A stretch of DNA of 24,869 nt from positions 1 to 24,869 of IMG/VR virus record IMGVR_UViG_3300008448_000594; one strand, 5' to 3'. Positions 1,975 to 23,184 of the stretch are shown here, in pieces (within the stretch, counting starts at the first letter, position 1; every line of letters begins with the position of its first letter). This stretch comes from a virus. The position numbers were made by a program, and so were the translations under genes. The notes beneath the pieces are model-generated. The model was given only the letters and a program-made list of their open reading frames with translations, ran no database searches and had not been told where the DNA came from.

Positions 1975-2002
1975 TACGCAATCGATAACCGTCAGCCACA
2001 GC

Positions 2003-2513: not shown

Positions 2514-2713
2514 CCCCTGAGAAAGCCGTTTACATCATAAGGTCTCTTGTGGATGAATATGGCATTTCTCAATCCACAATGGCCAAGCATTTAGATATGT
2601 CGAGAGGAGGATTCATTAAAGTATACAATGGGCAGAGCAGACCATCATCAGTCTTTGTGTCCAACGCATCAAAGCTCATCAGAAGAATACGAATGGAGGT
2701 GTCCAATGGATAG
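2510..2713 (+). CDS. helix-turn-helix DNA-binding protein, 67 aa
   Basis: The product looks like a minimal Cro/C1-type (XRE-like) domain. A first helix, PEKAVYIIRSLVDEYG, leads into ISQSTMAKHLDMSRGGFIKV, which has the spacing of a helix-turn-helix with a small residue in the turn. The YNGQSRPS segment matches the loop that normally follows the recognition helix. A C-terminal basic helix (ASKLIRRIRMEV) completes the fold. No second domain exists. The start is set by ATGA overlap with the previous gene, and the stop overlaps the next start (2706). It is probably a small phage transcription regulator acting on nearby promoters; the CGTCAGCC octamers upstream are candidate sites but untested. Confidence 0.6.
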   Translation: MTPEKAVYIIRSLVDEYGISQSTMAKHLDMSRGGFIKVYNGQSRPSSVFVSNASKLIRRIRMEVSNG

Positions 2714-3068: not shown

Positions 3069-3450
3069 CGAAAAGATTATCGAGCAAGTCCGTGCTATTG
3101 AGACCTTGCTCATTGAGAAGAACATCGCTTACGGGGATAGCGCAACGAACCCTGCGAATGTGTTCAGCAAGAAATCACCGAGGGATTCTATCTGCGCTAG
3201 GATTGACGATAAGTTGAACCGCATCAAGAACCGAGGGCTCAACGACCACACCGAGGACACCGTAACTGATTTAATTGGCTATTTAATTTTATTAAAAATC
3301 GTATTGCAAGATGAACGAGACCAACCCACTAGACAAGAGGATAACGGTGTTCAAGACACTGACGGACACAGCGAGCCCGATTATCGCCACACTTGGACAA
3401 GTAGTTCAACAAGTGGCGAACCCAAAAAAGTATTCTTTAGCGATTATTGA
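3043..3450 (+). CDS. DUF1599 / nucleotide modification associated domain 1 protein
   Basis: Residues about 10-90 match the DUF1599 family. The pattern is a helix ending in IEKNIAYGDSATNPANVF, then a basic ARIDDKLNRI segment, and then EDTVTDLIGYLILLKI. The family occurs in phage genomes near nucleotide and DNA modification genes, but its reaction is not established. Starts at 3037 and 3043 are both in frame; the second Met (MEDTKK) is chosen. The last 45 residues (after about QDERDQPTRQ) are polar, low in complexity and lie over the first 140 bases of the primase-helicase gene in another frame. The conserved domain ends before this overlap, so the tail looks overprinted. It might have arisen by loss of an earlier stop. 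Confidence 0.75.
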   Translation: MEDTKKSTNEKIIEQVRAIETLLIEKNIAYGDSATNPANVFSKKSPRDSICARIDDKLNRIKNRGLNDHTEDTVTDLIGYLILLKIVLQDERDQPTRQEDNGVQDTDGHSEPDYRHTWTSSSTSGEPKKVFFSDY

Positions 3451-5128
3451 GCGCATTCGCTCAGGCGAGGCGACTAAAGACGAGAAGAAGCAGTTACCCA
3501 TCATCTGTTTCTCTGGGGTGTTCAGAACGAGGGACGATGCGTCCCTTGAGGAGCACTCTGGCTTGATGGTTATCGACATCGACGATGTTAACGCTGTAGA
3601 AGCCAAGAGGCACATAGCACTGGACAAGCACACGCTTGTATGCTTCGTGTCCCCCTCTGGTAGAGGAATCAAGGTCGTGGTAAGGATATCAAACCCCGAA
3701 CGCCACCGAGACCACTATCGCTCCATCATCAAGTACTACGACATCAATTACGGCCTTGAGGTAGACCCAACAGGTATCAATGTGTCAAGGGCTTGCTTCT
3801 TTAGCTACGACCCAGAGATTGTTTATAGAGAGGATGCTGAACCCTACGGGGGACTTCTCTCCGAACGAGCCGAGGCGCAACAGATTGAAGTTAAAACAGC
3901 TGGTATCACAGACTATGAACAGCTGAACATAGCGTGTCGCATGATTCGCAGAGCTGAGCAGGGGGAGAAACATGATGTGCTACTTCGTGCCTCCGTGCTC
4001 TGTGGAGGGTACATCGCTGCCTCGCTGATGGAGGAAGATGAGGTCGTTCGCGTGCTGTCTAGGGAGATAAGCAAGCGAGATGTGGACTCCATGCAGGTAG
4101 CCATGAACACCATCAGGGACGGCTTAGAGCGAGGCAAATTGATGCCCATTAAGAATGTCCTTGACGAGCGTGATAAGATGCGTAGGGAGCTTCTAATCAG
4201 CGATGGGGATATGTCCTTTATCTCATCCGACGACGACGATTACAAGTGGATTTCCATGTTCGCAAGAGGGGAGATTCCTCAAGGTCTGTCCACTGGTATC
4301 GAGAAGGTTGACGCTCACTGGCGGTTCAAGAAGAACTTTATGGTTATCAACGGCCATTCCAACATCGGTAAGACGACCTTCGCATTGTACCTACAGGTGG
4401 CTAGCTCCATGAAGCATGGCTGGAAGTGGTTGCTATACACCTCCGAGAACAAGACCGCCTCCGTGAAGATGAAACTAATGACCTTCGCCATGGGTAAGAC
4501 CATTGAGTCGATGACCAAGGCTGAATTGAAGCTCAGCTACGACTGGGTTCGAGCTCACTTCACGATTATCGAGAACAACAAAACCTACTCCTTCTATGAC
4601 CTCCTCGTCTTCACTGAGAAGGTTCTACGCCAAGAGAGGCTTGATGGGGTCCTCATAGACCCCTACAACGGACTCAAGCGTGACATGAGGCAGGGCTCTA
4701 CATTAGGTGTGCACGAGTACGATTACGAAGCGATTAGCGAGATGCTGACAATGGCAAACGCCAACGGCATTGCGGTGTGGCTCAACGCCCACGCAGTCAC
4801 GGAGGCCCAGCGCATGAAGGGCCCAGACGGATTGCCCATTGCCCCGTTTGCGGAGCAGACCGAGGGAGGTGGTAAGTTCGTAAATAGGGCGGATGATTTC
4901 GTGACCTTCCACAGAAAGATTCAGCACCCCGATGCAGCGTTGAGGCGAACTGTTGAGATGCACGTTCGTAAGATTCGTGAGACAGAAACGGGTGGTTCCC
5001 CTACATCGTTGGACAACCCTCTCATGTTTGAGTGCAACTTCGATAGAAACACCTTCTACTTCAACGATGGTTCGCTGATGTTTAACCCTTTAGCCTGTGG
5101 AGAACTAAGTGAAACTTTATTTAGATAA
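3311..5128 (+). CDS. primase-helicase: BT4734/VirE-N-like domain fused to DnaB-like helicase
   Basis: This 605-residue protein has two parts. Residues about 10-180 resemble the BT4734-like/VirE N-terminal family. They contain KRITVFKTL, then LPIICFSGVF, SGLMVIDIDDV (85-93) and SPSGRGIKVVV (114-124). The acidic ID-ID pair and the SPSG loop recall archaeo-eukaryotic primase active sites, which is inference. Residues 325-605 are a RecA-like helicase. Walker A is GHSNIGKTT (348-356), Walker B is DGVLIDP with Asp450, a sensor-like WLNAH is at 490-494, and an FVTFHRK strand is near 530. This is the phage's replicative helicase with probable primer synthesis at the fork. The start at 3311 keeps the family's N-terminal pattern, although it overlaps the upstream gene by 140 bases. 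Confidence 0.85.
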   Translation: MNETNPLDKRITVFKTLTDTASPIIATLGQVVQQVANPKKYSLAIIERIRSGEATKDEKKQLPIICFSGVFRTRDDASLEEHSGLMVIDIDDVNAVEAKRHIALDKHTLVCFVSPSGRGIKVVVRISNPERHRDHYRSIIKYYDINYGLEVDPTGINVSRACFFSYDPEIVYREDAEPYGGLLSERAEAQQIEVKTAGITDYEQLNIACRMIRRAEQGEKHDVLLRASVLCGGYIAASLMEEDEVVRVLSREISKRDVDSMQVAMNTIRDGLERGKLMPIKNVLDERDKMRRELLISDGDMSFISSDDDDYKWISMFARGEIPQGLSTGIEKVDAHWRFKKNFMVINGHSNIGKTTFALYLQVASSMKHGWKWLLYTSENKTASVKMKLMTFAMGKTIESMTKAELKLSYDWVRAHFTIIENNKTYSFYDLLVFTEKVLRQERLDGVLIDPYNGLKRDMRQGSTLGVHEYDYEAISEMLTMANANGIAVWLNAHAVTEAQRMKGPDGLPIAPFAEQTEGGGKFVNRADDFVTFHRKIQHPDAALRRTVEMHVRKIRETETGGSPTSLDNPLMFECNFDRNTFYFNDGSLMFNPLACGELSETLFR

Positions 5129-5155
5129 TTGACAAGTAGGTTCATAGATTTACAG

Positions 5156-5716
5156 ATGGCTAAAAAAACCAAGATAAATGCAGAGAAGAACTTCTACGAT
5201 GGAATACAATTCAAGAGTGGTTTGGAGCTCTATTGCTACAAGAAACTCAGAGCCGCTGGTTTGGTATTCGACTATGAGTCGGAATCGTACACGCTTATGG
5301 ACGGCTTCGTTTTCTCAGGTACCTACTTTAAGTGTACCAATGGGGCTCAGCTCATGGTCAATCGAAGCAACGGAAAGGAGTTTCCAATTACCTACAAGCC
5401 AGACTTTGTGTCCCATGACCACAAGTTCATCATTGAGACCAAGGGATTTGTGCCTTCACAGCACACATTCACGATACGCTGGAAGCTATTTCTTCACTGG
5501 CTGGTCATCAACGAGATGACTGATTACAAAATCTTTTTACCTAAAAACCAATTACAAGTAGACCAAACCATAAACATAATCTTAAACGATGGACAAGATA
5601 CAACTGTCGGCTTACTACCTGATGTCGGTAAGTCGCATTCAAAGACACGCAGTCGACCTGTACGAAAAACTACACGACGAAAAAGGGGACCCGATACACG
5701 ACGAAGAGCTCGTTAG
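5156..5716 (+). CDS. T7 endonuclease I-like (PD-(D/E)XK) nuclease
   Basis: The order of motifs follows phage endonuclease I. KSGLELYCYKKL carries Glu24, then VFDYE. YKPDF carries Asp83 and FIIETKG carries Glu94 and Lys96. An arginine-lysine pair is in IRWKLFLHW. T7 endonuclease I cleaves branched DNA such as Holliday junctions and helps degrade host DNA; the same role is likely here. A 45-residue insertion between the first Glu and the YKPDF strand makes it longer than T7 gp3. A TTG start at 5129 would add nine residues; ATG at 5156 (MAKKTK) is more convincing. The last 42 residues are basic and low in complexity and lie over the next gene in another frame, so they may not belong to the fold. 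Confidence 0.8.
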   Translation: MAKKTKINAEKNFYDGIQFKSGLELYCYKKLRAAGLVFDYESESYTLMDGFVFSGTYFKCTNGAQLMVNRSNGKEFPITYKPDFVSHDHKFIIETKGFVPSQHTFTIRWKLFLHWLVINEMTDYKIFLPKNQLQVDQTINIILNDGQDTTVGLLPDVGKSHSKTRSRPVRKTTRRKRGPDTRRRAR

Positions 5717-5801
5717 GAAAGCTTGCACCGAGCTGTTGGTGGATTCAAGGAAGGAATTAGACTTCCTTAAAGACGCTCTGGAAGAGCACAACTCTCAGTA
5801 A
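5589..5801 (+). CDS. hypothetical small helical protein, 70 aa (or 59 aa)
   Basis: The protein is charged and almost entirely helical: SRIQRHAVDLYEKLHDEKG, then ELVRKACTELLVDS and LDFLKDALEEHNSQ. It has no membrane segment or enzyme motif. The first 128 bases lie inside the nuclease gene in another frame. A second Met at residue 12 (5622, MSVSRIQ) would reduce the overlap to 95 bases and is an equally good start. The helical, balanced composition suggests that this frame, rather than the arginine-rich nuclease tail, is the constrained one. The stop at 5801 is two bases before the next ATG, typical of an operon. The function is unknown. Confidence 0.6.
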   Translation: MDKIQLSAYYLMSVSRIQRHAVDLYEKLHDEKGDPIHDEELVRKACTELLVDSRKELDFLKDALEEHNSQ

Positions 5802-7302: not shown

Positions 7303-7515
7303 ATGAAACTGAAAAGACTTACACCAAAAGAGTACAAGAGCAAAGTCGCTGACATCTGCGACTCAATGACGGAGGATGAGGTTGAGAAGCTGACCGTTTT
7401 TTATTGGGAGACCCAAATTAACGGGAAGAAGTTCTTCGTAACTTATATCTGCGAGACTGACGAGACTGATGAGTCGGTTATGGAAATCATGAAAGCAAAA
7501 TCAAAAGAGAAATGA
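7303..7515 (+). CDS. hypothetical protein, 70 aa
   Basis: This is a charged small protein: a basic N terminus ([15 protein letters not shown]), an acidic segment ([11 protein letters not shown]), a beta-like stretch ([17 protein letters not shown]) and a lysine-rich tail. No family, signal or metal motif is recognised. It lies 11 bases after nrdB, and its TGA overlaps the ATG of the collagen-like gene (ATGA at 7512-7515), so it is translated within the reductase operon. The leader AAACCTTTAAACT before ATG resembles other leaders in the window. A reductase accessory role is suggested only by location. Confidence 0.6.
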
Positions 7516-7931
7516 GCTACAACTACACAGACAAGATTCTCTTTGATTACCTCACAGAGAACCCAGATGCAAGCGTCATCCAGATAAACAGGGTTACAGG
7601 CGTTAGCTTTCCTCTGATTACGGATTTCCTTGAGAACAAATGGAGAGGTGGTAAGGGGCCAGCTGGAGAACAAGGGCCTCAAGGTCTGCAAGGGCCTCAG
7701 GGCATTCAAGGGGACCCAGGGCCAACTGGAGAACAAGGGCCTACAGGCCCAGAAGGGCCAGCAGGGGCTACTGGAGCTACAGGTCCAGCGGGTGCTGGGT
7801 ATTCCAGCGGTCAAAATGTTGGGGATATCAAATATTGGGACGGCTCTGAGTGGAAGAACTTAAGTATAGGGACGGCTGGTCAAGTGTTGACAGTCGGAGA
7901 ATCAGACAATTTAACTTGGACAGATAAATAA
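7512..7931 (+). CDS. collagen-repeat protein with N-terminal helical domain, 139 aa
   Basis: Three parts are visible. Residues 1-44 are a compact helical segment with a winged-helix-like rhythm ([11 protein letters not shown], then [21 protein letters not shown]). Residues 46-96 contain 17 unbroken Gly-X-Y triplets with frequent proline and glutamine, a collagen-like triple helix. Residues 97-139 are a small beta-rich cap ([29 protein letters not shown]) of the type seen at the end of phage fibre proteins. This architecture suggests a trimeric virion fibre or spike element. It sits between nrdB and nrdA with ATGA and TAATG junctions, an unexpected place for a structural gene. The triple helix could instead only serve to trimerise a regulatory head domain. 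Confidence 0.8.
7656..7742. repeat. internal DNA repeat within collagen region
   Basis: A 24-base unit beginning GGGCCAGCTGGAGAACAAG at 7656-7679 recurs at 7719-7742 with one base changed (G to A). The offset of 63 bases equals seven Gly-X-Y triplets, so unequal exchange between copies would keep the frame and the triplet register. GGGCCT-type hexamers fill the space between. Confidence 0.85.
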
Positions 7932-9838: not shown

Positions 9839-11020
9839 ATGAATAAAAGACCAATCGTCATTAGCACGATTTACACACAGGAAGAGAGCGGAGCTGCATT
9901 CTATCGGCTCAATATGCCGAATGCTTGGATGCAAGACAACTCCGACTTGTTTGAGTTCAGAAACTTCGCTGGGTTTGACAAGATTGGGGATACGAACATC
10001 GTGGAGACAGACCTCTTTGTTATCACAAGGGTTATGGACACGAAGTCCGTGGAGTCCGTTCAAGAAGCAGCCAAGGCGCTGAAACAGTTCGGTGCTAGGG
10101 TTATCTTAGACCTTGACGACTACTGGGTGCTTAACAAAGACCATGTGTCCTACAAGCATTACAAAGACAACAACCTATCTCGCATCATCGAGGAGAACAT
10201 CAGGCAAGCCGACTACATCACTTGCTCGACTGATTACTTGGCTAGCAGAGCTGGAAATATCAACACAGAGGTAACGGTAATCAAGAATGTCCCCTACCCC
10301 AATAAGTTCCATCAGTATGTACCTATTCAACGCCCAGCACCCTATGTGCGATTCGGTTGGTTCGGTGGTGCTCAGCACATTGAAGATATTGCGCTGATGG
10401 AGAAGAGCATGAAGATGCTTTGCAATGACAGGTCACTGAATGGCAAGTACACCGTTACGCTTGGTGGCTACAATGACAACCCATCCTATAACTTCTACGA
10501 GCGGATATTCAGCAACAGAGGGAACAACAAGCACTACAACCGCATCCCAGCTAGGTCTGTGTACGAGTATATGTACGGGTACAACGATGTAGATGTAGCC
10601 TATGCTCCAGTGAACAAGACGGAGTTCAATCGTTCTCGTTCTGAGCTGAAGGTCGTTGAGGCTGGATGGATGGGTAAGACTCTCATCTGCTCTGACATGG
10701 ATTACTACAAGGAGCATATCAAGCACGGGTACAACGGGTTCATCGTGTCAAAGGCAGAGGAGTCTGGGTGGTATCGTTATACCAAGCAGCTTATCCTTGA
10801 TAAGGATTTGCGTGAGGGTATGCAGAAGAATTTGCAAGAGTATGTACTAAAGAACTTTCAGTTCCCTGAGATATTTGCTAAGAAAGCAAACCTTTATCTA
10901 AGAGCGTATAGGGAGAACAGCATGGAAAATCGAATTCAAAAATTAATAGACAATGGAACAATCTCAATCACCGAGCCAGGAGCAACCGAAGAGCCAACCG
11001 AAGGTTCTACCGAGGCTTAA
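9839..11020 (+). CDS. GT-B fold glycosyltransferase (GT4-like), 393 aa
   Basis: The protein reads as a retaining GT-B glycosyltransferase. The N-terminal half has alternating strands and helices, with VILDLDDYW around residue 90 and an SGAAFYRL opening typical of the group. The C-terminal half begins with VRFGWFGGAQHIEDI. It carries the donor-binding segment SRSELKVVEAGWMGKTLICS, which has the EX7E-like spacing of GT4 enzymes, then YNGFIVSKAEE, as in sugar-nucleotide binding loops. No membrane segment is seen. The acidic tail (EEPTEGSTEA) overlaps the next gene by 68 bases. It is the first gene after the tRNA and a possible promoter, and probably leads a four-gene decoration operon. The sugar and acceptor are not predictable. 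Confidence 0.85.
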   Translation: MNKRPIVISTIYTQEESGAAFYRLNMPNAWMQDNSDLFEFRNFAGFDKIGDTNIVETDLFVITRVMDTKSVESVQEAAKALKQFGARVILDLDDYWVLNKDHVSYKHYKDNNLSRIIEENIRQADYITCSTDYLASRAGNINTEVTVIKNVPYPNKFHQYVPIQRPAPYVRFGWFGGAQHIEDIALMEKSMKMLCNDRSLNGKYTVTLGGYNDNPSYNFYERIFSNRGNNKHYNRIPARSVYEYMYGYNDVDVAYAPVNKTEFNRSRSELKVVEAGWMGKTLICSDMDYYKEHIKHGYNGFIVSKAEESGWYRYTKQLILDKDLREGMQKNLQEYVLKNFQFPEIFAKKANLYLRAYRENSMENRIQKLIDNGTISITEPGATEEPTEGSTEA

Positions 11021-11675
11021 TCACTTCTATCACATCTACGCTGGCAGCGATTGGTTGCTGACGGTTCATCAGCACTTCGTTACGCTGAGTTCTTACGGAC
11101 TCATGGATGTCCTTGAGAACGTATATGTAGGCATCGTTGGTCCGCCAGAGCAACGTCAAGCTGTTATTGAACATCTTCAGAGTTATAGCAATCCAAAGAT
11201 TATCGTCGCTGCTCAAGAGGATAGCGGTTACGAAGGTGTTACCCTGAGGAAGTTATGGGAGTTTGCAAAGACGGACGATGGACTGGTTTACTACGCACAC
11301 ACAAAGGGTAGTTCAAGGGGCGGTATCGTCAATCAGCTATGGTGTCGTTCTATGCTCTTCTTCTCTTCGGTCCGATGGCAGCACGCAATCATGCCTCTCA
11401 TGGAGAGCGATAATGAAGCTGCTGGGTGTCACTACATCAGCAAGGATAAGTTCCCTGAGTACTTCAAGATGTACAAAGAACATCACCCGCATGGGTATTC
11501 TTTCTTCGCTGGTAACTTCTGGTGGGCTAAATCAAGCCATGTGCAGAAGCTATCAGCGCCTAAGACAGAGGACAAGTATTCATCCGAGGGATGGCTTGGT
11601 AGTGTGCCATTCAAACAGATTGATATGTTTGAGGGGATGCCCGCATTAAACATATTTCAGAATATAACTTTTTAA
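10953..11675 (+). CDS. glycosyltransferase-like protein, 240 aa
   Basis: After a Gln/Ser/Pro-rich lead of about 20 residues, the domain begins LNHFYHIYAGSDW and continues with VYVGIVGPPEQRQ, GYEGVTLRKLWEFA, LVYYAHTKGSSRG, FFAGNFWWAKSSH and SSEGWLGSV. The HTKGS, AGNFWWA and WLG blocks recall a glycosyltransferase-like family seen in viruses and marine bacteria. It looks like a single GT-A-type domain, although no DxD motif is obvious. The only available ATG (10953) lies inside the previous gene, 68 bases before its stop. The low-complexity lead is therefore overprinted on that gene's acidic tail. It should act with the neighbouring sugar and methyl transferases. Confidence 0.65.
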   Translation: MEQSQSPSQEQPKSQPKVLPRLNHFYHIYAGSDWLLTVHQHFVTLSSYGLMDVLENVYVGIVGPPEQRQAVIEHLQSYSNPKIIVAAQEDSGYEGVTLRKLWEFAKTDDGLVYYAHTKGSSRGGIVNQLWCRSMLFFSSVRWQHAIMPLMESDNEAAGCHYISKDKFPEYFKMYKEHHPHGYSFFAGNFWWAKSSHVQKLSAPKTEDKYSSEGWLGSVPFKQIDMFEGMPALNIFQNITF

Positions 11676-11677
11676 CT

Positions 11678-12262
11678 ATGAAAGACAAAGAACTGATTGA
11701 TATACTCGACGAGTTGGGACTCAATGGTGCTGACTGGCAAGGAGGAACCGATAAGGCTAGTGACCATAACTACACAAGCACCTATGCCAAATATTTGGCT
11801 GAAATGCGGGATAAACCAATCAACTTTGTTGAAATAGGGGTATGGCACGGTGGTTCAATGGCCATGTGGTCAAAGTATCTACCCAAGGCCAAGTTCCTGT
11901 TCTATGACATTGATAACCAAGTCAAGCCGAAGGCTGACGAGCATATAGATTGGACTCGTTCAAAATTGCATATTGCATCAGCTTACACACCAGAATCCGT
12001 TCAAGTAGCTAAGGACTACTTCGAAAATGGAATTGACTTTTTGCTTGATGATGGCCCGCATACATTAGAATCCATGCTACAAGTTGTAAATCTATATAGC
12101 CCATTGATGAATCAGGGAGGTATATTAATGATTGAGGACGTACAAAGCAAGGATTGGTTCGTTTACCTGTCAGCCGTAGCACCTAGCAATTCAGTCTTTG
12201 AATCTGTAGACCTTACAGAATCGGGCCGATACGATGACCTTATTGCGGTTTACAAGTTTTAA
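11678..12262 (+). CDS. class I SAM-dependent methyltransferase-like protein, 194 aa
   Basis: The Rossmann pattern is clear. NFVEIGVWHGGSMAMW corresponds to motif I, and KFLFYDIDNQV ends in the acidic residue expected to bind the cofactor ribose. DFLLDDGPHT carries a DD pair, as in metal-dependent sugar O-methyltransferases and cephalosporin hydroxylase-type proteins, and GGILMIEDVQ is the following strand. The N-terminal helical region (DWQGGTDKASDHNYTSTYAKYL) is also typical of that group. It is likely to methylate a sugar made or attached by the flanking glycosyltransferases. It starts two bases after the preceding stop, so the genes are coupled. DNA or protein methylation is less likely because no target recognition domain or DPPY-type motif exists. 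Confidence 0.8.
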   Translation: MKDKELIDILDELGLNGADWQGGTDKASDHNYTSTYAKYLAEMRDKPINFVEIGVWHGGSMAMWSKYLPKAKFLFYDIDNQVKPKADEHIDWTRSKLHIASAYTPESVQVAKDYFENGIDFLLDDGPHTLESMLQVVNLYSPLMNQGGILMIEDVQSKDWFVYLSAVAPSNSVFESVDLTESGRYDDLIAVYKF

Positions 12263-12291
12263 TAGCGGTCTATTTAAAGCATATAAGATAA

Positions 12292-13041
12292 ATGAGAACA
12301 GCACTTGTTTGTATCGCAAAAGACGAAGACTTCTACATAGAAGAGTGGATTAGCTACCATTTAGCTATAGGATTTGATAAGATATTCGTGCTTGCAAACG
12401 AATGGAATTACTCTACAGGCAATAAGCGTGTAGAGGTCATACCGTTCCCTTCGTTTGAGTACGCACTAGATATGCAATCAAAGGCATACAATTACGCATT
12501 GAGAATCCTTAAAGGAAGCTATGATTGGGTAGCCTTTTATGATGTCGATGAATTCCTTTGCTTAAAGAAACATTCGGATGTTAAGAGCTTCATCAAGGAG
12601 TTCTATCCACACAGACCAAAGGCTATTGCTGTAAACTGGGCTTTCTATGGTGATAACGGATTATCAGAGGTATCAGGCAGCTATAGTCTTCTAGAAAGGT
12701 TCACCAAGCGTCAAGCTGAACCTGATAAGCATATTAAAGTGATTGTAAGCCTAAAGGGTAATCACTACTTCAGCGAGCAACCACACAGCACCAATTTGGA
12801 GTGGACTGACCAAAGCCTTCGTGTAGGGACTGGCCCATTCAACGAAAATGCAAGCATCGATATGGCTCAGATAAACCATTACTGGTGTAAGACAAAAGAA
12901 GAGTACGATAAGTTTAAAATGCCAAATGGTCAAACATGGGGACCCAATCTAAAAAGGGAACCAGGCGACTTTCAAAACCACAACCACAACGAGGTTGAGG
13001 ACACCATCGCTAGAGACTTCTACCGCCTCTCAGAGCGGTAG
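12292..13041 (+). CDS. GT92-like / GT-A glycosyltransferase, 249 aa
   Basis: The start MRTALVCIAKDEDFYIEEWI followed by SYHLAIGFDKIFV is the family signature of GT92 and related GT2-like enzymes. WVAFYDVDEFL supplies the DxD motif (metal and nucleotide-sugar binding) near residue 83. Later conserved blocks are AIAVNWAFYGDNG, SLLERFTK, HIKVIV and INHYWCKTKEEYDKF; the last is typical of the acceptor-side end of the domain. No transmembrane segment is present. It is the last + strand gene and runs tail to tail into the putative spanin gene, overlapping its 3' end by 22 bases. It probably completes a surface-decoration pathway with the three genes before it. Confidence 0.85.
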   Translation: MRTALVCIAKDEDFYIEEWISYHLAIGFDKIFVLANEWNYSTGNKRVEVIPFPSFEYALDMQSKAYNYALRILKGSYDWVAFYDVDEFLCLKKHSDVKSFIKEFYPHRPKAIAVNWAFYGDNGLSEVSGSYSLLERFTKRQAEPDKHIKVIVSLKGNHYFSEQPHSTNLEWTDQSLRVGTGPFNENASIDMAQINHYWCKTKEEYDKFKMPNGQTWGPNLKREPGDFQNHNHNEVEDTIARDFYRLSER

Positions 13042-13454
13042 ATAACGACTAGCAGTAATACTGCTGCGAATCCCCAAACTGCACTTGAGAGATACTCGAA
13101 AGGCTTGCTCTTCTTGGCTTCTTTGTAAACAACCCTTTCAACGGGGACCGAAACAGTCCGCACGATTGTATCCGATTTGCAAGCCCCAGTAACTCTAATA
13201 GTATCATTTGATTTTATGATTTTGATTTGTAGTTTGTCCTTGATGATTTCGATGGTGTCGTATTGCTTCGTAACGAATGTATCTGTAACGTATACCGCTG
13301 GCGTGTAGAACGTATCCCTAACCTTTAGGGTGTCGGTCTTCACTATCATAGGGTTCTTTCTTATTGCACGCTTTAGATGCCATTCTGGCGAACATGAAGC
13401 TAATAAACAGAAGAAACCCGTTAAACATATCTTGAGTGCAAATTTACTTACCAT
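13020..13454 (-). CDS. putative unimolecular spanin (lipoprotein with C-terminal membrane segment), 144 aa
   Basis: The chosen start (MVSKFALKICLTGFF) gives a lipoprotein signal with lipobox LASC and lipidated Cys21. The middle (residues 25-115) is hydrophilic and rich in beta-prone Thr/Val/Ile repeats (DTLKVRDTFYTPAVYVTDTF, NDTIRVTGACKSDTIV). The C terminus is a single membrane helix (about 121-139, YLSSAVWGFAAVLLLVVIY) closed by RSERR. An outer-membrane lipid anchor plus an inner-membrane C-terminal anchor is the architecture of u-spanins such as phage T1 gp11, which fuse the two membranes at lysis. An upstream Met would add 14 residues that spoil the signal peptide. It overlaps the giant protein's stop by 11 bases, so it ends the virion operon. 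No holin or endolysin is in view. Confidence 0.65.
   Translation of the reverse strand: MVSKFALKICLTGFFCLLASCSPEWHLKRAIRKNPMIVKTDTLKVRDTFYTPAVYVTDTFVTKQYDTIEIIKDKLQIKIIKSNDTIRVTGACKSDTIVRTVSVPVERVVYKEAKKSKPFEYLSSAVWGFAAVLLLVVIYRSERR
13021..13040. terminator. hairpin at the convergent gene junction
   Basis: TACCGC (13021-13026) pairs with GCGGTA (13035-13040), giving a six-base-pair stem with an eight-base loop, across the tail-to-tail overlap of the last + gene and the last - gene. Its symmetry would serve both transcripts. There is no T run on either side, so intrinsic termination is uncertain. Confidence 0.3.
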
Positions 13455-16400
13455 AGCCTGTTTCTTTTTGATACTCACGGAGGATTTCGGAACCATTGAT
13501 TGGCTTACCAGTCTTCCGCTTATAGTCGTTGATGTATTCTACTAGCTCCTTTCTGCTCATCGTCCTACCCCCGTACTCCATAATGATTCTCGCTTTAGCC
13601 TCGTTGCTTGCAGCGTAGCTGATGTCGTTGTACTCTGGGTTGGTGGCTTTCCCGTACTTTCTGGCTTGCTGGAAGGCATCCATAAAATACCTAGCGTCTG
13701 GTACACCGCTCTCTTTTCTGATTCTCATCAGCTCGTCTTGGTACTCGCTCCTAGCTTCGCTCATAGCCTTGCTATCCTTTGCGTTGTAAGCTTCAAAGTA
13801 CTTTTGACCTATATCCTGAGCTGCAATCTTGATGCCACGCCTTTCGGATTTCTCCTCCATGTTGATGCGCTCAATCTCTTCCTTCCTCGTGTAGCTCCTC
13901 CAGTCTGGCTCAGTAGCACCCGTGAACACCTTGGACATACTGATACCTAACGATTTGCTGACGCTGTTAGAGATAGCTGCTTGGTCTTTTACGGGGATAC
14001 CTCCTGGGCCCTTAAGCTCAAAGAGCCTTGAGAACGAATCAAGTATCGTGTACGCACCCATGGTTAGCAAGGATGAATACGGAGTGGTTACGAACTTCTC
14101 AGTGGCGACTTGAAGGCGCTTAGGACCAACCTCACCTCCAGATGCGGTAACGCCTTGAGCTAGAGCCTTGTAAAAGTAAGGAACTTGCTTGTTGGTGAAA
14201 TCTTCGTCCTGTGGGAGAACTTGGTTGTAGTCCATTGATATGGCACGCTCTCTGTAGGTATCATAATTCATCTGATATGAAGAGATAGCCGAGTACATTG
14301 GAACCAATGAAGAAATCTCTTTGGTCACATTTGATGGGTCCTTAGGCAGGTACATCATCGCACCCTTCCAAGCGTACTCATAAGCATCCTTGGATTCTCT
14401 TGGTTCACGTCCCATGACCCCAGCAACAAAGTAGTCAGATGCCAGCTCAAGACCAGCAATGAATGGTGCAAGCTGTTGTGTTTTTGCTATCTTGACATAG
14501 TGACGCTTGGTCTTCCCGTCCTCCTCGAAGGTGAACGGAGTCATGATGATAAAGTACTTACGCTTGGTCTCCTCTGGGATATCCTCCATATCATCGTCGC
14601 CAATCATCGCATTGTAGAGCGCAAGCATCAGCACACCGATAGACAAGTATCCGAGCTTTATAGCGAACTCTTTGGGGTTGTTCTGAATGTAGCTAGTTGA
14701 TACCCTAAAACCTTGGAATGCGGAGTTGATGTATGGTGCGATAAGCTCCAAATTCTTAGTTGCAATACCACCCTGAGAGAAGTCAATCATCTCTCTAGCT
14801 TTAGTAACAGCTTGAACCTTAACTCTTGTAATCTCGTCCTCCGTTGCGTTGGACCCTAGAGCCTTGATTCCGTCCTCCTTGAACTTCTTGTACATAGCTA
14901 AGCGGAAACCAATCTCTGATAACTCACCAGCCTTACCGAATTTCTCAATAAGCTTATTGATTACTGTTCTCTTGTTCACCATACTCTCTAATCCCTCCGT
15001 GGACAGGAAGTCCATACCACCACCGAACTCAACAAAATCCTTAAAGTCTTGGTCGTCTTGGAGTTTGCCCTTAACGCCCTTGATAAAGTCACCAGCAAGC
15101 CTCATGGCTGCAAGCGGTAGGGACATATTATCATAAGCGTCCGTAAAGAATAGAACGTGCAGATAGTCCCTTGGAATGTTCTTAGCGACGAACAATGGGT
15201 TTGCCCTCGTGGCAAATAGTTTGACAGCATAAGAACCAGTAATAAGTCCGATTACTCTCTTTGCATTATAGGATAGCGTTGACACACGCTCTATATCATC
15301 AAGCTCTGACTTCAAGTTATCCTTTAAGTAAAAGGACTTCCTGACACCTTCTTCAAAGTAAGTAACCTCTTCGAATCCTGGTTTATCGGTCTTGGATACC
15401 CATGACTCGTTGCCCTGTGCCTCGGTGGCTTTGGCAATCTCCTTGTTGGCTTTGTTGCGTGCAATCTTGGAGAATGCGCTCTTAGCGTAAAGAGACAGTA
15501 GGAACCTTGAGTCGAACATAATATCACCCTCGCTACCTTCCTTAATTCGTCTAATCTGCGAAGCGCTTAAGTTCATCTCACGCATGGATGGTTCGTCCAT
15601 TTCAGTGATATGGTCTAGGAATAATCGTGGTTGGTAATCGATATCCCTCAGCTGCTCGTACAGCTCCTCGCTAACAAGCCCCTCCTCGTACATAGAGTCT
15701 AACAGCGAACGGAAAGCATCGAAGTACTTGGTGGCACGGTCGTTAAGGTCTTTGTATGCAGCGTTCCCAAGCTCTTTCTGGAGCCTTGCAAGCTCCATTT
15801 CAGCGTACTCCTTATTGAAGCCGTTGGTGTGCTTTGGGCGGGCTTCGTCACGCTCATCGAAGTTGCTATCAATCTCGATGATACGCCTGAGCATAATAAT
15901 CTGGTCGAGCTTTTCAATCTGTTCCTTCTTGAGGTCTTTGTAGATATCCTTCTCCTTCTCGTAATAGAAGTAGGCAGCTCTAGCCCCAGACCCAGCCTTG
16001 TTGACCAGATAGTTGTAAGCGTTCTTCATCCCTGAGGCGAGAATCGCCTTCTTGAGCTCTGCCTGTCTGTCAATAAAATATTTCTTGAGGTTGTTCCATG
16101 TGAAGAAAGCCTTGTTCTTCCCTGCCTCCATGCGCTTCTTTGAGCTATCGTAAGCGTCTTGGATGCTTGGTGCAGTGAACGGTGGCTTGTTTCTTACAAC
16201 TCCGTTGTAGATTGCAGTAGCTGTCTGTGCGCTCAGGTACGGGGTCATCATGGTCAACCACTGCTGGAGTGTATACGGTGGAGTGTTCGTCCCGTCTGAA
16301 TTCTTAGTAGATTCTTGCAGCAAGCTGCTGTAGACCGCTGGTATTAGAGAAGGCCCTTGAGCTTTTGAGATAGCTTGGCGCTTTGGTTGCTTTTGTTCTC

Positions 16401-19400
16401 CAACCAACAAGTCCTCAACTGCTTTGACTAATTCAGGGTTAGACCCATCTTTCTTGGCTTTGTGGTAAGCTTCGGAAATAGATTTTGGATTATTATCGTA
16501 ATTGTCAAATACATCTTTATTTGCTTCAAATATTTTCCCCCACTCATATCTTTCATTTCTATTTGCAATTTCTTTTTCGTTCCAAGATGTATCAAAATAT
16601 TTATTCAATATAGAATTTACTTCATCAAGAGCGGTGGGGCTTTTGGTTATTTTTTCTATAAAGTTTCTTATTATGTTTTTCAATTGGTCAAATATAGAAT
16701 TGCCATTGGCTTTTATTTCTTTGCCAGCAGGAATAGCATCTAAAAAATCTGCAAATTCCTTATTTGTAAATGCGTAAGTAATTAGTTCTTCAAGGCTGCC
16801 TACTTCCTTAAGTTTGTCTGATTTTAATTCTTCTTCTGTTGCCCCAAAAAAATCTCTTTCCTTAAACTGTTTTCTTGTGTCTTGAATGTATGAAATTATA
16901 CCTTTGACTTCATCGGATGCGCTATCATAATTATTCAAAACAGAGTTCATTACACCTTGCAAATCATTATTTAAGGCATAATTGTCCCTTATCCCTCTGC
17001 TTATTAAACCATGTATTATTTCATGATTCAATGTTTCTGCAAATTCATTGTAATCTCCTAAATAATATTTTGCTACATTTTTGTTCAATTGAATATTGCC
17101 GTATGCCCAAGCAGCAGTCATTCCATAGGGCAACTTTTCATTTGATATGTTTATATTGTTTCTCGCAGCTATCTCATAAAGGGATTTGTATTTATTAAAT
17201 ATAGCCCTTGGCAAAACATATTCAGCAACTTCTAAAGCAGATGGAAATTTTTTATCTGCTATTTGCTTGTCAAATTTTGATAATTTGTCTACAATTGTAT
17301 TCTTGTAATCTATATCAAACTTGCCATCCAACGCCTTAGCCGTACTCTCCACGTCTTTCAGTGCGGCTACTCTTGAGATATCTTGACGCTTGGGGGCTTT
17401 TTGCCCAGACTCTTCTAGATAGGTGTCTAGCGTTTTTGGTGATTTACCGCTATTGCCTTCATCCCAAGTGCTCTTATCAGCCTTGTCTACGTCTTCTTTG
17501 AACTTAGCCAGCTCTTTAGTGAACTCGCTTTCACTTAACTTAAACGATGGGTTTGTAAACGCCTTGTAATAAGAAAGACTAAGGGCTTTAGCACGCTCCC
17601 TAAGTTCGTCGTTTATGTTTTCGTCACGATTGATTTCATAGAAATAGTGCCCTATACCATCTGGTATAGCCCATCCCAATCGGTTCTGAACTTCTTTGAG
17701 TCTCTTTCTAGCAAAGTCTTGCTGATTGTCGTCAAAGTAATCAACCCCGTCTTTAGCCAGATACCCCTCTGGGGTCATTATCTGTATTTCCCCTATGAAT
17801 CCATTCTTTGTATCCATCTCAATGAGCCGTTTTGGATATCCCAAATCGGTGGTCTCATTTACACGCCTCTCCCTGTCAGGGTTTTTTGATGGGTTCTTTT
17901 TGTCGATTTCGTTAAACAGCCTGTCAGCCTGTTGCTCGTTATCAACGATGATATTTACTCTAGCCCCATCACCGAGGTCTTCTATATCAGAGTTATACCA
18001 TCGCATAACCTTTATCGAGGCTCTTTCTGGTCTCTTTATGTTGAACCTAGAAACGAATGCTCCTCTTAGGTTGCGGGAAACAGACGATGCAATTCTCTCT
18101 ATCTCACGCTTAGCTTCTTTGTAAAAAGGCTCATTTAAGGCTATTGTGTCTTGGATGATAGGTTGGATGACGCTTTTTATTTCATCATACCTTTTCTGCT
18201 TATCCTTAGGTAGCTTCTCCTTTTTCTTGGAGAGCTCTATTTCCTCCAGGCGAAGCTTATTGAACTCTTTAGCTAGCAGCTCATACTTAGTTAATCCGTC
18301 TTTGTGCGCTTTAAGAAAGTTATCTCTATCGTATTGTCTGGTTGCTCCTTCGGTTGATTTTGCCCCTTTGTAGGTTGACTTCCTGAACCTGACCTCTGAC
18401 TTGACATCTCTTCCCACTCGGCTGACGTTAGCCATAGCTTTTCGGGCTGAGCTGATTTGTTCGTCGTAGTATTCTTTTTTGATTCTTCGCTGCTCATCTT
18501 CTGATAATTTTTCTTGTTCTTCTGTTAAAAATGGGAATATAGTTATCTTTAATTCTTTCTTATTAAGCGAGAATCCATCAATTCCGCCTTCTCTTAAAGA
18601 CAAAGATAGTTCATTTAGCTCCTTATCGGATAAAGGACTGGTAAATTCCGCATAAAGTTGCGGGAAATGAGACATATTTGTCTTTTCGTCGTAATCGCCA
18701 AGAGGCATTACATTTTCCCCTAACTGCTTCCTAAAGTCCTCTGATTCTTCTGACGCTGTTTCTACGATAAACGCATCTTGAGTATATCTCTCAGCAAACT
18801 CGTTGAGAATCTGAGATACCTCATTCTCATTTGATTGCGGTGTAAGCCTTAGCTTGAGGTTAAACGATGGCTCGAATACATTGTTGTACAGACCCCTGAA
18901 ATCATCGTCAAACTTAACGGAAGCACCTTTTACTTTAGAAATCCTAGCAGCAAGCTGTTTCCTCGCTGCATCTAGTATTTGAGAGGCTACGTTATTAATC
19001 TCCTCTGAGTTGTCAATCCCTTTCTCTGACTCTTTTACTAATCTATCGTATTTCTCAGATAGGCTCTTTATTCTAGCTGTTACCTTATCAAACTTTCTTT
19101 CGGTTGTCGCTGGGGTAATAGCGATATCTAACTCTCTTACGAATGTAGCTGACTGCTTACCCTCAAAACCTTGACGCTTTGGGGCCTTTCTTTGCTGAGC
19201 GTTATTTATAGTCTCTGTGGCCTTATCAACAGCAGCCAAATCAACAGCCTCATCTAGCTGTATAATATTGCTACTAGGAGAACTAATAGCATCAACATAT
19301 TCGTCTTCAGATTCCTTTACATTAACAATTTTCGAGACTTCGTTTGGCAAGAATGATAAATCCTTTTTCCCTTCTATTAATTTGGTCACAGCATTGGAAT

Positions 19401-22400
19401 AATCCACGTCCATTGCTGACTTTTTGCTCTGTATCTCTGCGTAAAGTCTTTTTTCGAAATACCACAATATGGCCTGAATATCAGCCATTGATAAATCATA
19501 ACCAGCCTTCTTGAGTTTTTCTTGAGCAACCTGCGTTGTCTCAATCATCATATCCCTATCTCCAGCATTAAAAGGCTTATCATTAAGCTCTACAAAAGCA
19601 GCTTTATAGATGGTATTGGCCGCTTTCTCTATAGCTGTACCGTTTTTGTATTTTTTCTTTATGTATGAGTCAGCATACTTTTTGACCTCTTTTAGGAAGG
19701 CGTTGTTGCTAATGTTTGGTTTTCCTATGGCATTTAAAAACTTCTGCTTGCCCTGTTCTTTTACAGTTGGTAAGAGTATACCCCTATATCTATTAAAAGT
19801 TCTACTCCACCATCTATCCATGGTCAAATAGTTCTCTTGACCAGAAAGGTTCGCAAAGAACGCTCCTAATTTAGGCCCAAATACCCCAGCCGAAATTGGC
19901 ATCGTTGTGGTTACTTTGTAATCACTTTTTTTTATATTGTATTTCTTCTTGATATTACCGTAGCTATCTGTTTGCAATAGAAAATCATTGATTGCAACAA
20001 AATCATTCCCATATTGCTTAATTAATCTATTTATATTGCCTACATTTATCTTCATCCCAGAATTCCTATCTCCACCAAAATTAAATTTGTCAGATACAAC
20101 GCCATCCTTTAAGTAAGAGTTGTATAACGATATAGCATAGGTGAAATTATTGATAACCTTTTGTCCATCAGAAGTTATAGCAACAAGCATGGTAAACAGA
20201 TTTCTGTTGCCTTTATCTTTTAGGCTGGGTATAGACTCAGACAGCAAATCAAGTGCTTTCTGAAACTTTTCCCCATACCAACCCTTAGCAGAAGACTCAC
20301 CGAGTGATTCTAGTTCAAATATCACCTCATCAACCATATAGTTTGAGATGATATCTTTTGCCTTGTCGCTGGTATCATTTTTAGCTATTTTAATATACTT
20401 CTTCTGTTGTCTTTTTTCTAACGCAGCACCTACCTGACGGATATTGGTTACTTTATCACCGACTGGGAAGCCAAATTCAGCAAGACTTTCCTCTTTCGTT
20501 CTAAGTCCAACAGCTTGTCTCTTTGGCCCCTTTTTGTCTCCTTCCTCTTTGGTTTCAGTCGTCTTTTGAATATCAAGCTTAGCCCCAGCTCCGAGCTTCT
20601 GTGAGTAGCTTAAAAGGGCTTCAGCGAGCTGCGAAGAGTTCGGTGCCATCTTGATACCAACCGCTCCTAATACGCTCGCTACGGCCTCCATAAAGCGTGT
20701 GGCGAGGCTCTTCGTAATCTCGACATCGATATCTCCAGCTGCAACCATTGCCCCCAACTCAGCAAGTAGCTCCTCGCTTTTGTCACCTTGCTCATATTGA
20801 GACAAGAAGTTACCAAATTTTGCATTAAGCCCTGGGTCTCGCTTTATTCCGCTTGCAAGCGCTTTAGCCACCTTGTTTATACCCTCCTGACCAAATGCCT
20901 GTGGGACTATCTCGTGGATACCCTCGTGATAGACCGTGTTGCCAAGCAATGCTGGGGCGAACAGGATAATCTTAGAGGGCGCTCCCTCTTGTCCTCTTTG
21001 GTAATACAGACCCCTAGACAGCTTTTGTGGCTCTCCAGTCGTTGGGTCCATCGTTGCCTTATTCCATTCGTCTTCAGTGTTAATGGCCTCAACTTCGACG
21101 TTAAGACCTTCCTTGGCGAAGGAGGAGATTACATTAGCAACAGATTCAAAGCCATCTGTTATTGACTGGCGTGTTGTTTCAAACTTCTGTAGCGTTTCCT
21201 CAGGGATGCTCTCGACATAGGACTTAAGCCCAGAGAGAACCTGAGGCAGCGTTTGAGATGTTAGCTTCGCCTTGGTAGGTCTGAATCCGACGTTTGGTTG
21301 CTTAGCCGCTTCTACTACTTTTTCTTCTTGCTGGCTAGGTACTTGAAGTACTCCACCTGCTTGAGGCGTTTCTGTGCCTGTTCCTTGGACGGGAACTCCC
21401 CCAAGTTCCGCCCCTTGGACGACTGGACTTGGTACTTGTTGTTTTTGCGTACTATCATATTTCTGTTCGATTTGCGCCTTCTCGGCTAGTGATTGCTTGA
21501 TAAGACTTACAGCTTCTGCTTTCGCTTCCGCTGTCTTCAGTTGGCTGTACCCGTTGAACTGCCTTGCTACATCTTGATGAATCTGTAGCATTTTCTTCTG
21601 GTCCTCTGGGGAGAACTGTTTGTACAGATTGCTTGACTCGTCCTGTAATTGTCTGAGCTGTGTCTTGTACTGATTCAATCTGTTGCTTAGTAGCGACTTC
21701 TCTGATTCAGAGATAGAGGGGTCCTTCAGCAATTCGTTAATTTGTTGAACTCTGTTCTTAATCTTGTAACCGTCGCTAAACAGTCTGGTTTCTGGCAATG
21801 ACGACACGCCATAGGCCAGCGTCTGAACGCCTCCACCCATTGATGCTCCAAGCACAAAGGACTCCGCTATATCCATAGGGCTGAATTCCTTGCCCATCAT
21901 GACGTTATCCATTGTCTGAGAGACAACCGAAACGATACCTTCTTCAATGCCTTCCTCCAGGGAGCCTCTTAAAGCTTTTGGCACCCTCTTGAATAGGGCA
22001 TCAGCAAATTCTTTCTTAGGTATCTCAGAGAAAGCTTTAGCTCCACCAAACTTACCCTTTAGCAAGCTGTTACCAATCCCTCTAACGGTATTGATATCAG
22101 TAGAGAACAAACGCTCTGTGAGTGCCTCCGTTAAACCAATGGCAAACGCATGGGCGACTTTGCCAAGACCAGACATATTCTCGTTATCCATGTTGGAAAT
22201 CCAGTCCTGAGCGCCAGCTTGTGTTCCAAGAAACGCTATACCAGCTGGTCCAGCAGCTGCAGCAATAACGAAGTTCGGGACCTGGTCTAGCATATCTAGA
22301 CCTAACATTTCGATAGAATTACCGAAGTTGCCTTTTAGGGCTTGCCCTAAGAACCCATCGTTGATTTCCTCCTCTGTATACCCAGCGTTAATCCTTTCAG

Positions 22401-23184
22401 CGAAAGCAGATAGCTCACGCTTTTGTCTAGCCTCTTTTGCTTTCTGGCTAGCCATTGTAGGCATACCAGCTATAGCATCAAAGGGCACTGGAGTTGCGTA
22501 CTTAGAAACAAGGTCCGCAAGTCCTAAACCAGCCTCTACGATGCCTAACCCAGCTCTGTCAATGAAATTAGTGCGCTCAGCCTCTCTTTTTAGCTTGGCT
22601 TTCTCGTCTTTAATGGTCCTATCGTAGAAGCCTTTTATATCTTGGTCTATGATTCTTGCTACATTCGAGGACAGATTGCCAGATTCGTCAAATGGAGAGT
22701 CTGGTAGCGTTGAGTCGGTCTTTCTGTACTCGTCCCAATACGACTTTACGCTTGGGGCAATAGCCTCCCTGAACGACTCATCGTCTGTTGCTTTTTTCTG
22801 TGACGCAAGAATTTGGTTGGCGATATTCGTTGACAAACTCTGTCTGCGCTGAGTCTCAGCAATCTGTTCTAGCTGTGGCCTTATAGCCTCAGCAGAAGAC
22901 TCAAACTTTGCTTCTTGAGCCCTTAAGTAAGGGGGCGTATCGTCAGTCGACTTTACCCTCAGCTCCGATAAAGATGGAGTAGCTACCCGTGTGGATGGAG
23001 ATGCCCCAGCGGCCCTTAAGCCAGTTCCAGCGGGACTTTTTTTTTTAAACTCGTTGTAATACAATGGGATTGAATCTAAATACGATTCCCCCCAACCAGC
23101 GTTAGCAAAGTCATTACGCATCTTCTCAAGAGAGTAACCCTTGCTTACACCAATCTGTACGAGTTTCTTTAAATCTTCTGCCAT
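13444..23184 (-). CDS. giant polyvalent virion-type protein, 3246 aa (two zincins, RelA/SpoT-like, LPD38-like)
   Basis: One uninterrupted frame covers 39% of the window. Four PKRQ motifs (887, 1335, 1931, 2267) define five modules. Module 1: polar helical N terminus, hydrophobic Ala/Gly stretch near 305-320 (FVIAAAAGPAGIAFLG), Gln-rich coiled coil about 480-580, then a zincin with HEGIH at 753-757 and candidate third ligand Glu809. Module 2: unidentified domain containing SDGQKVINNF and NYLTMDRWWSR. Module 3: unidentified N-terminal half, then a RelA/SpoT-like domain with DLGDGARV (1736-1743), GYPKR (1782) and EIQIMT (1799-1804). Module 4: second zincin, HEIIH at 2054-2058 with Glu2132/2133. 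Module 5: long helical part and LPD38-like NPLFVAKNIPRDYLHVLFF (from 2662), with a membrane-like helix near 2845-2862. It is probably packaged in the virion and injected. No counterpart with the same full domain order is known to me. Confidence 0.85.
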   Translation of the reverse strand: MAEDLKKLVQIGVSKGYSLEKMRNDFANAGWGESYLDSIPLYYNEFKKKSPAGTGLRAAGASPSTRVATPSLSELRVKSTDDTPPYLRAQEAKFESSAEAIRPQLEQIAETQRRQSLSTNIANQILASQKKATDDESFREAIAPSVKSYWDEYRKTDSTLPDSPFDESGNLSSNVARIIDQDIKGFYDRTIKDEKAKLKREAERTNFIDRAGLGIVEAGLGLADLVSKYATPVPFDAIAGMPTMASQKAKEARQKRELSAFAERINAGYTEEEINDGFLGQALKGNFGNSIEMLGLDMLDQVPNFVIAAAAGPAGIAFLGTQAGAQDWISNMDNENMSGLGKVAHAFAIGLTEALTERLFSTDINTVRGIGNSLLKGKFGGAKAFSEIPKKEFADALFKRVPKALRGSLEEGIEEGIVSVVSQTMDNVMMGKEFSPMDIAESFVLGASMGGGVQTLAYGVSSLPETRLFSDGYKIKNRVQQINELLKDPSISESEKSLLSNRLNQYKTQLRQLQDESSNLYKQFSPEDQKKMLQIHQDVARQFNGYSQLKTAEAKAEAVSLIKQSLAEKAQIEQKYDSTQKQQVPSPVVQGAELGGVPVQGTGTETPQAGGVLQVPSQQEEKVVEAAKQPNVGFRPTKAKLTSQTLPQVLSGLKSYVESIPEETLQKFETTRQSITDGFESVANVISSFAKEGLNVEVEAINTEDEWNKATMDPTTGEPQKLSRGLYYQRGQEGAPSKIILFAPALLGNTVYHEGIHEIVPQAFGQEGINKVAKALASGIKRDPGLNAKFGNFLSQYEQGDKSEELLAELGAMVAAGDIDVEITKSLATRFMEAVASVLGAVGIKMAPNSSQLAEALLSYSQKLGAGAKLDIQKTTETKEEGDKKGPKRQAVGLRTKEESLAEFGFPVGDKVTNIRQVGAALEKRQQKKYIKIAKNDTSDKAKDIISNYMVDEVIFELESLGESSAKGWYGEKFQKALDLLSESIPSLKDKGNRNLFTMLVAITSDGQKVINNFTYAISLYNSYLKDGVVSDKFNFGGDRNSGMKINVGNINRLIKQYGNDFVAINDFLLQTDSYGNIKKKYNIKKSDYKVTTTMPISAGVFGPKLGAFFANLSGQENYLTMDRWWSRTFNRYRGILLPTVKEQGKQKFLNAIGKPNISNNAFLKEVKKYADSYIKKKYKNGTAIEKAANTIYKAAFVELNDKPFNAGDRDMMIETTQVAQEKLKKAGYDLSMADIQAILWYFEKRLYAEIQSKKSAMDVDYSNAVTKLIEGKKDLSFLPNEVSKIVNVKESEDEYVDAISSPSSNIIQLDEAVDLAAVDKATETINNAQQRKAPKRQGFEGKQSATFVRELDIAITPATTERKFDKVTARIKSLSEKYDRLVKESEKGIDNSEEINNVASQILDAARKQLAARISKVKGASVKFDDDFRGLYNNVFEPSFNLKLRLTPQSNENEVSQILNEFAERYTQDAFIVETASEESEDFRKQLGENVMPLGDYDEKTNMSHFPQLYAEFTSPLSDKELNELSLSLREGGIDGFSLNKKELKITIFPFLTEEQEKLSEDEQRRIKKEYYDEQISSARKAMANVSRVGRDVKSEVRFRKSTYKGAKSTEGATRQYDRDNFLKAHKDGLTKYELLAKEFNKLRLEEIELSKKKEKLPKDKQKRYDEIKSVIQPIIQDTIALNEPFYKEAKREIERIASSVSRNLRGAFVSRFNIKRPERASIKVMRWYNSDIEDLGDGARVNIIVDNEQQADRLFNEIDKKNPSKNPDRERRVNETTDLGYPKRLIEMDTKNGFIGEIQIMTPEGYLAKDGVDYFDDNQQDFARKRLKEVQNRLGWAIPDGIGHYFYEINRDENINDELRERAKALSLSYYKAFTNPSFKLSESEFTKELAKFKEDVDKADKSTWDEGNSGKSPKTLDTYLEESGQKAPKRQDISRVAALKDVESTAKALDGKFDIDYKNTIVDKLSKFDKQIADKKFPSALEVAEYVLPRAIFNKYKSLYEIAARNNINISNEKLPYGMTAAWAYGNIQLNKNVAKYYLGDYNEFAETLNHEIIHGLISRGIRDNYALNNDLQGVMNSVLNNYDSASDEVKGIISYIQDTRKQFKERDFFGATEEELKSDKLKEVGSLEELITYAFTNKEFADFLDAIPAGKEIKANGNSIFDQLKNIIRNFIEKITKSPTALDEVNSILNKYFDTSWNEKEIANRNERYEWGKIFEANKDVFDNYDNNPKSISEAYHKAKKDGSNPELVKAVEDLLVGEQKQPKRQAISKAQGPSLIPAVYSSLLQESTKNSDGTNTPPYTLQQWLTMMTPYLSAQTATAIYNGVVRNKPPFTAPSIQDAYDSSKKRMEAGKNKAFFTWNNLKKYFIDRQAELKKAILASGMKNAYNYLVNKAGSGARAAYFYYEKEKDIYKDLKKEQIEKLDQIIMLRRIIEIDSNFDERDEARPKHTNGFNKEYAEMELARLQKELGNAAYKDLNDRATKYFDAFRSLLDSMYEEGLVSEELYEQLRDIDYQPRLFLDHITEMDEPSMREMNLSASQIRRIKEGSEGDIMFDSRFLLSLYAKSAFSKIARNKANKEIAKATEAQGNESWVSKTDKPGFEEVTYFEEGVRKSFYLKDNLKSELDDIERVSTLSYNAKRVIGLITGSYAVKLFATRANPLFVAKNIPRDYLHVLFFTDAYDNMSLPLAAMRLAGDFIKGVKGKLQDDQDFKDFVEFGGGMDFLSTEGLESMVNKRTVINKLIEKFGKAGELSEIGFRLAMYKKFKEDGIKALGSNATEDEITRVKVQAVTKAREMIDFSQGGIATKNLELIAPYINSAFQGFRVSTSYIQNNPKEFAIKLGYLSIGVLMLALYNAMIGDDDMEDIPEETKRKYFIIMTPFTFEEDGKTKRHYVKIAKTQQLAPFIAGLELASDYFVAGVMGREPRESKDAYEYAWKGAMMYLPKDPSNVTKEISSLVPMYSAISSYQMNYDTYRERAISMDYNQVLPQDEDFTNKQVPYFYKALAQGVTASGGEVGPKRLQVATEKFVTTPYSSLLTMGAYTILDSFSRLFELKGPGGIPVKDQAAISNSVSKSLGISMSKVFTGATEPDWRSYTRKEEIERINMEEKSERRGIKIAAQDIGQKYFEAYNAKDSKAMSEARSEYQDELMRIRKESGVPDARYFMDAFQQARKYGKATNPEYNDISYAASNEAKARIIMEYGGRTMSRKELVEYINDYKRKTGKPINGSEILREYQKETGYGK
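16375..16386 (-). other. PKRQ linker 4 (residues 2267-2270)
   Basis: Context EQKQPKRQAIS, at the end of the AT-rich second zincin module. Codons are CCA AAG CGC CAA. The GC-richer LPD38-like C-terminal module begins here. Confidence 0.75.
17383..17394 (-). other. PKRQ linker 3 (residues 1931-1934)
   Basis: Context QKAPKRQDIS, following a Gly/Ser-rich polar stretch after the RelA/SpoT-like domain. Codons are CCC AAG CGT CAA. The second zincin module begins just after it. Confidence 0.75.
19171..19182 (-). other. PKRQ linker 2 (residues 1335-1338)
   Basis: Context RKAPKRQGFE, after NNAQQ. Codons are CCA AAG CGT CAA. It separates module 2 from the module that carries the RelA/SpoT-like domain. 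Confidence 0.75.
20515..20526 (-). other. PKRQ linker 1 (residues 887-890)
   Basis: Context KKGPKRQAVG, after a Lys/Glu-rich disordered stretch that follows the first zincin. Codons are CCA AAG AGA CAA. It marks the entry into the AT-rich module 2. Confidence 0.75.

Follow-up and report, generated by a model that had tools for sequence, protein, structure and literature searches.

Repeated linkers and a bracketed cargo slot suggest module exchange in a giant phage polyvalent protein

The window, a 24,869-nt stretch of viral DNA (IMG/VR record IMGVR_UViG_3300008448_000594), encodes a giant protein of 3246 aa on its minus strand. Beside the giant gene lies a row of glycosyltransferase- and methyltransferase-like genes (9839-13041, plus strand), and a collagen-like tail fibre protein is encoded at 7512-7931 (plus strand). 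This fibre protein has 139 aa in the window and 346 aa, owing to extra collagen repeats, in L001, the one close relative, itself a single IMG/VR contig whose giant protein measures 3498 aa. The giant gene is laid out as follows:

13444..23184, minus strand: ORF of the giant, predicted polyvalent protein, 3246 aa
21337..23184, minus strand: N-terminal part, residues 1-616, without family match
20527..21336, minus strand: module 1, residues 617-886, with a HEGIH zincin-like motif read from the sequence
20515..20526, minus strand: PKRQ-1, residues 887-890
19183..20514, minus strand: module 2, residues 891-1334, weakly DUF7178-like, shared with podophages ctEw122 and DC33
19171..19182, minus strand: PKRQ-2, residues 1335-1338
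17395..19170, minus strand: module 3, residues 1339-1930, Tas1-like (RelA/SpoT-type) domain, matching Tas1 (6ox6)
17383..17394, minus strand: PKRQ-3, residues 1931-1934, exact breakpoint against L001 and first half of a direct repeat
17329..17361, minus strand: left bracket LKDVESTAKAL, residues 1942-1952
16480..17328, minus strand: slot cargo, the zincin-like (HEIIH) module 4, residues 1953-2235; kinase-like in L001
16405..16479, minus strand: right bracket ISEAYHKAKKDGSNPELVKAVEDLL, residues 2236-2260
16375..16386, minus strand: PKRQ-4, residues 2267-2270, second half of the direct repeat
13447..16374, minus strand: C-terminal module, residues 2271-3246, with a sub-threshold LPD38 match; homologues in Cellulophaga, Maribacter and Desulfofustis phages

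Judged by its sequence, the giant protein belongs to the polyvalent (multi-effector) proteins of phages. We assign it to this family because residues 2863-3025 match Pfam LPD38 ('large polyvalent protein associated domain 38'; E=7.6e-5; 23.3 bits, below the Pfam cut-off of 27), and because distant homologues of its C-terminal module occur in Cellulophaga phage phi46:3, Maribacter phage Panino and a Desulfofustis phage. Several effector-type domains lie in one large phage-encoded chain, namely the LPD38 region (below cut-off), the Tas1-like module and a module 2 shared with podophage giant proteins (residues 904-1295, in podophages ctEw122 and DC33). The phi46:3 homologue is annotated as a virion structural protein, and in L001 the giant-protein gene comes after tail and internal-protein-like genes; the giant protein probably travels in the virion and is injected. 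In phi46:3 (L002, 8434-14953), the C-terminal module's homologue is divided between two ORFs (gp120 and gp121). The module 1 region (570-845) has weak homology in contig L023, and no match to module 1 was found in PDB or NCBIfam. Module 3 matches Tas1 (PDB 6ox6) with E=1.3e-5 as a single sequence and 1.1e-6 as a profile; Pfam and NCBIfam do not detect this domain. A BLAST search for internal self-homology of the giant proteins returned none.

A first-pass annotation had proposed that four PKRQ motifs delimit the modules, as candidate processing sites or swap points. The copies begin exactly where it placed them in the 3246-aa ORF, at residues 887, 1335, 1931 and 2267, and PKRQ is the commonest tetrapeptide of the protein, of which composition predicts 0.02 copies. 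A best tetramer of any sequence was as over-represented in 1/3000 shuffled proteins. Two near-copies read PKRL, one of them within the Tas1-like domain (residue 1784). The codons do differ between copies (CCA AAG AGA CAA; CCA AAG CGT CAA; CCC AAG CGT CAA; CCA AAG CGC CAA), but the argument drawn from this, that the identity is not just recent DNA duplication, needs correction: neighbouring copies resemble each other in DNA more closely than stretches taken at random from the gene do. Copies 2 and 3 have a similarity score of 14 (null fraction 0.0002) and copies 3 and 4 a score of 13 (null fraction 0.0003), with the likeness of the latter pair extending beyond PKRQ (AAGCGYCAAGMTATCTCAA). PKRQ-1 shows little DNA similarity to its neighbours (null fraction 0.05 with copy 2). 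The same annotation counted two zincin domains in the chain; the HEGIH and HEIIH motifs are present, but neither domain libraries nor models confirmed the fold, the SprT-like match reaching only E=0.23 and the single-sequence model of the HEIIH cassette (pLDDT 40) being too poor for use.

Comparison with L001 revealed an added module and a replaced one. The DNA of the two giant genes is 97% identical from nt 1561 to 5788 of the window gene and then breaks; a 76-nt match begins with the first PKRQ-3 base, at window gene nt 5791, and pairs with L001 gene nt 6778. In L001 this match is displaced by ~1 kb, behind an additional module with an LPD23 domain. Homology stops a second time a few residues past LKDVESTAKAL and restarts 31 residues ahead of PKRQ-4, at ISEAYHKAK. 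In this gap the window has the zincin-like (HEIIH) module, whereas L001 has an unrelated module that is kinase-like by motif and has no Pfam match. Because homology breaks and cargo is replaced there, modules appear to have been exchanged at or beside PKRQ-3 and PKRQ-4, and for these two copies the idea of swap points gained support. L001 keeps the PKRQ sites though its module-4 zincin-like domain is gone, and one of its junctions (EPKES) is without PKRQ. The extra L001 module contains another HExxH-like motif, HEIQH, through which L001 could have a peptidase despite the loss.

Next, we examined module 3, which about 20 other phage contigs carry at 43-47% identity beside differing neighbouring modules. 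In most of them homology begins 6-13 residues after the PKRQ-2 position and ends 4-9 residues before PKRQ-3 or a few residues beyond. The module borders at PKRQ-2 and PKRQ-3 are thus real, and exchange at PKRQ-1 and PKRQ-2 is plausible. None of these roughly 20 phages has PKRQ at the junctions, and we rejected a universal boundary code; motif-lacking homologues are what the first-pass annotation had itself said would count against it. That the borders are real while PKRQ is lineage-specific argues against a conserved cleavage signal.

Two functional explanations of the motif bear on these data. PKRQ might be a short linker or a docking motif for a virion partner, under selection at the protein level. 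The four copies differ only synonymously and are retained in L001, as such selection would have it; but homologous modules of other phages do without the motif, and L001 is too similar over most of its length to reveal selection, which leaves this explanation improbable. Rather less probable still is a proteolytic site, where a host protease or the zincin-like domains would separate the effectors after entry. A dibasic, probably exposed linker lies at every border, zincin-like motifs occur in the same chain, all four amino acids are retained while codons vary, and metallopeptidase processing of polyvalent proteins is proposed in the accessible text of Iyer et al. 2017 (PMC5512222). Against cleavage stand the absence of PKRQ from the module 3 homologues, the retention of the sites in L001 after loss of the zincin-like domain and the DNA-level likeness of neighbouring copies. 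Moreover, junction peptides of other phages have no residues in common with PKRQ, no protease consensus unites them, and a junction motif conserved across homologues, as in an autoprocessed polyprotein, was not found. Chance recurrence of a common tetrapeptide in Lys/Gln/Pro-rich linkers, where K, Q and P are indeed frequent, is very improbable and largely refuted by the shuffled proteins and by DNA likeness that continues past the tetrapeptide.

We then turned to the interval between PKRQ-3 and PKRQ-4, in which module 4 is enclosed by two conserved peptides, LKDVESTAKAL on the left and ISEAYHKAKxDGSNPELVKAVEDLL on the right. A scan with the PKRQ-4 region gave 34 loci, nearly all sharing just the peptide that precedes PKRQ-4. 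Left and right peptides were each searched independently and the results combined, which gave 43 cassettes, all with left before right, around unrelated cargos of 18-281 aa. Cargo matches, nearly all weak, include ART-PolyVal (above the Pfam cut-off in L014, weaker in L043 and L094), NlpC/P60, GNAT, ParB-like and DUF7832; many cargos have no match, and among 20 cargos scanned most lack a confident Pfam match. Three natural cassettes (L058, L060 and L078) are near-empty, with 18 aa. A downstream right bracket was present in 19/19 sufficiently long contigs found by the left peptide alone, a count that includes L051, whose divergent right bracket was identified by eye; about a dozen right brackets have no detectable left bracket. 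The right bracket also occurs in two Bacteroidetes MAG contigs, which makes Bacteroidota the probable hosts; among isolate phages and plasmids it had no match. At the retrieved loci, bracket matches fall within giant ORFs or ORFs truncated where the locus ends, and none of these loci showed a stand-alone cassette.

Homology ends cluster at the brackets. Alignments were required to reach 40% identity or more, to contain few gaps and to cover 50 or more residues outside the brackets; of their distinct ends, 22/79 fell in bracket windows against 2.8 expected, with a maximum of 11 in 5000 circular shifts. A first count (121/618 vs 23) was set aside, being inflated by gapped alignments that bridge both brackets; low-identity 'travelling cassettes' were discounted for the same inflation. 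A shared cassette can have differing contexts (L046/L066, L034/L043), and a shared context can have differing cargo (window/L001, L022/L023, L016/L034). In L037, module 3 is placed after the bracketed cassette, not before it.

The peptides directly outside the cassette are often alike on both sides in one phage and differ between phages: PKRQ in the window, GQPSxxKRTPA in L022 (L088), ASDVASL in L056, EKPTTQPD in L043, NVVPST in L036 and LKxKAQM in L030 (L072). Similarity between a phage's own pair has a mean rank of 0.29 (0.5 expected), with a rank of 0.05 or less in 11/39. Direct DNA repeats with a score of at least 12 flank the cassette in 11/42 cases, whereas 0.65% of positions equally far apart within those genes reach that score. 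Six repeat pairs have 37/42 codons identical against 14.9 expected; since these pairs were chosen for their match, 11/42 is the fairer test. Private repeated tetrapeptides, sought in every giant protein, were present in some only. The best reading of PKRQ is a set of such linker repeats that has aged, with PKRQ-3 and PKRQ-4 forming one repeat.

Two long direct repeats were also noted. In a 734-aa ORF of L094, a Bacteroidetes MAG contig, a nearly perfect 123-nt repeat (residues 79 and 307) encodes a linker that precedes each of two successive modules. In a 1683-aa ORF of L059, a perfect 52-nt repeat (residues 843 and 934) surrounds a 91-residue module just upstream of a left bracket, and the identical sequence occurs in L042.

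The four PKRQ copies look like worn, phage-specific joins at which enzyme modules recombined, rather than cut sites. We consider it probable that PKRQ is a private junction linker, that modules were added by recombination, and that PKRQ-3 and PKRQ-4 flank a bracketed, exchangeable cargo slot. Modules would join by recombination (insertion or exchange), leaving a linker copy on each side, so that short direct repeats come to enclose the module; PKRQ-2/3 and PKRQ-3/4 would be older, partly diverged repeats of that type, and the linkers may otherwise be mere flexible spacers. Cargo would later be exchanged via the brackets, LKDVESTAKAL on the left and a helical hairpin (SEAYHKAK..DGSNPELVKAVEDLL) on the right, which are common to many Bacteroidota phages and would allow homologous exchange of effector cargo with the frame kept.

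The brackets themselves bear on how such exchange might proceed. In the left bracket the Ser codon is AGT in 17/17 (usage 0.18, P 3e-13) and the final Leu codon TTG in 12/17 (usage 0.18), as expected if phages exchange shared DNA; recent common descent of the cassettes would equally produce this codon conservation. The right bracket lies nearer codon saturation (0.48 vs 0.40), and protein-level selection therefore acts on it as well. A model of a natural near-empty cassette shows one helix and a helical hairpin (pLDDT 76), with no match in PDB, and DNA-anchor and structural roles may coexist. A bolder reading, which we hold only tentatively and think rather unlikely, is that co-infecting Bacteroidota phages use the DNA-conserved left boundary (GAGAGTACGGCTAARGC) together with the right hairpin as dedicated recombination anchors for trading injected effectors with the frame kept, each insertion duplicating the local linker.

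Bracketed exchange of cargo has a parallel in polymorphic toxins (Rhs, CDI), in which homologous recombination through conserved sequence allows an adjacent, variable toxin module to be exchanged. In those toxins it is the C-terminal end that varies, accompanied by an immunity gene and orphan cassettes. Like these systems, the slot holds differing cargo between flanks that are conserved among related proteins; its cargo, however, is internal, bounded on both sides and followed by further modules. Tas1, the (p)ppApp synthetase effector of Pseudomonas, has a synthetase domain that module 3 matches in sequence (E about 1e-6), but Tas1 is a type VI secretion effector, whereas module 3, a candidate synthetase, is part of a phage polyvalent protein. 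The polyvalent proteins of phages and conjugative elements, as portrayed in the accessible text of PMC5512222, are likewise giant and multi-domain with an LPD38 C-terminus, and likewise combine RelA/SpoT-like, ART, kinase, GNAT, ParB-like and metallopeptidase modules in varying ways. That text describes polyvalent-protein domain types and suggests cassette recombination for Verrucomicrobium kinase loci; within it the word 'linker' does not occur, and the passages found mention neither conserved brackets nor direct repeats flanking the modules. We found no bracket peptides in the literature searched, relative to which the bracketed slot with flanking repeats is new.

Two short signatures thus locate the effector slot in giant phage proteins without knowledge of the effector, making it straightforward to mine for new anti-host enzymes, with 43 cargos so far. 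They also provide a testable account of how polyvalent proteins may gain and lose domains while the frame stays intact.
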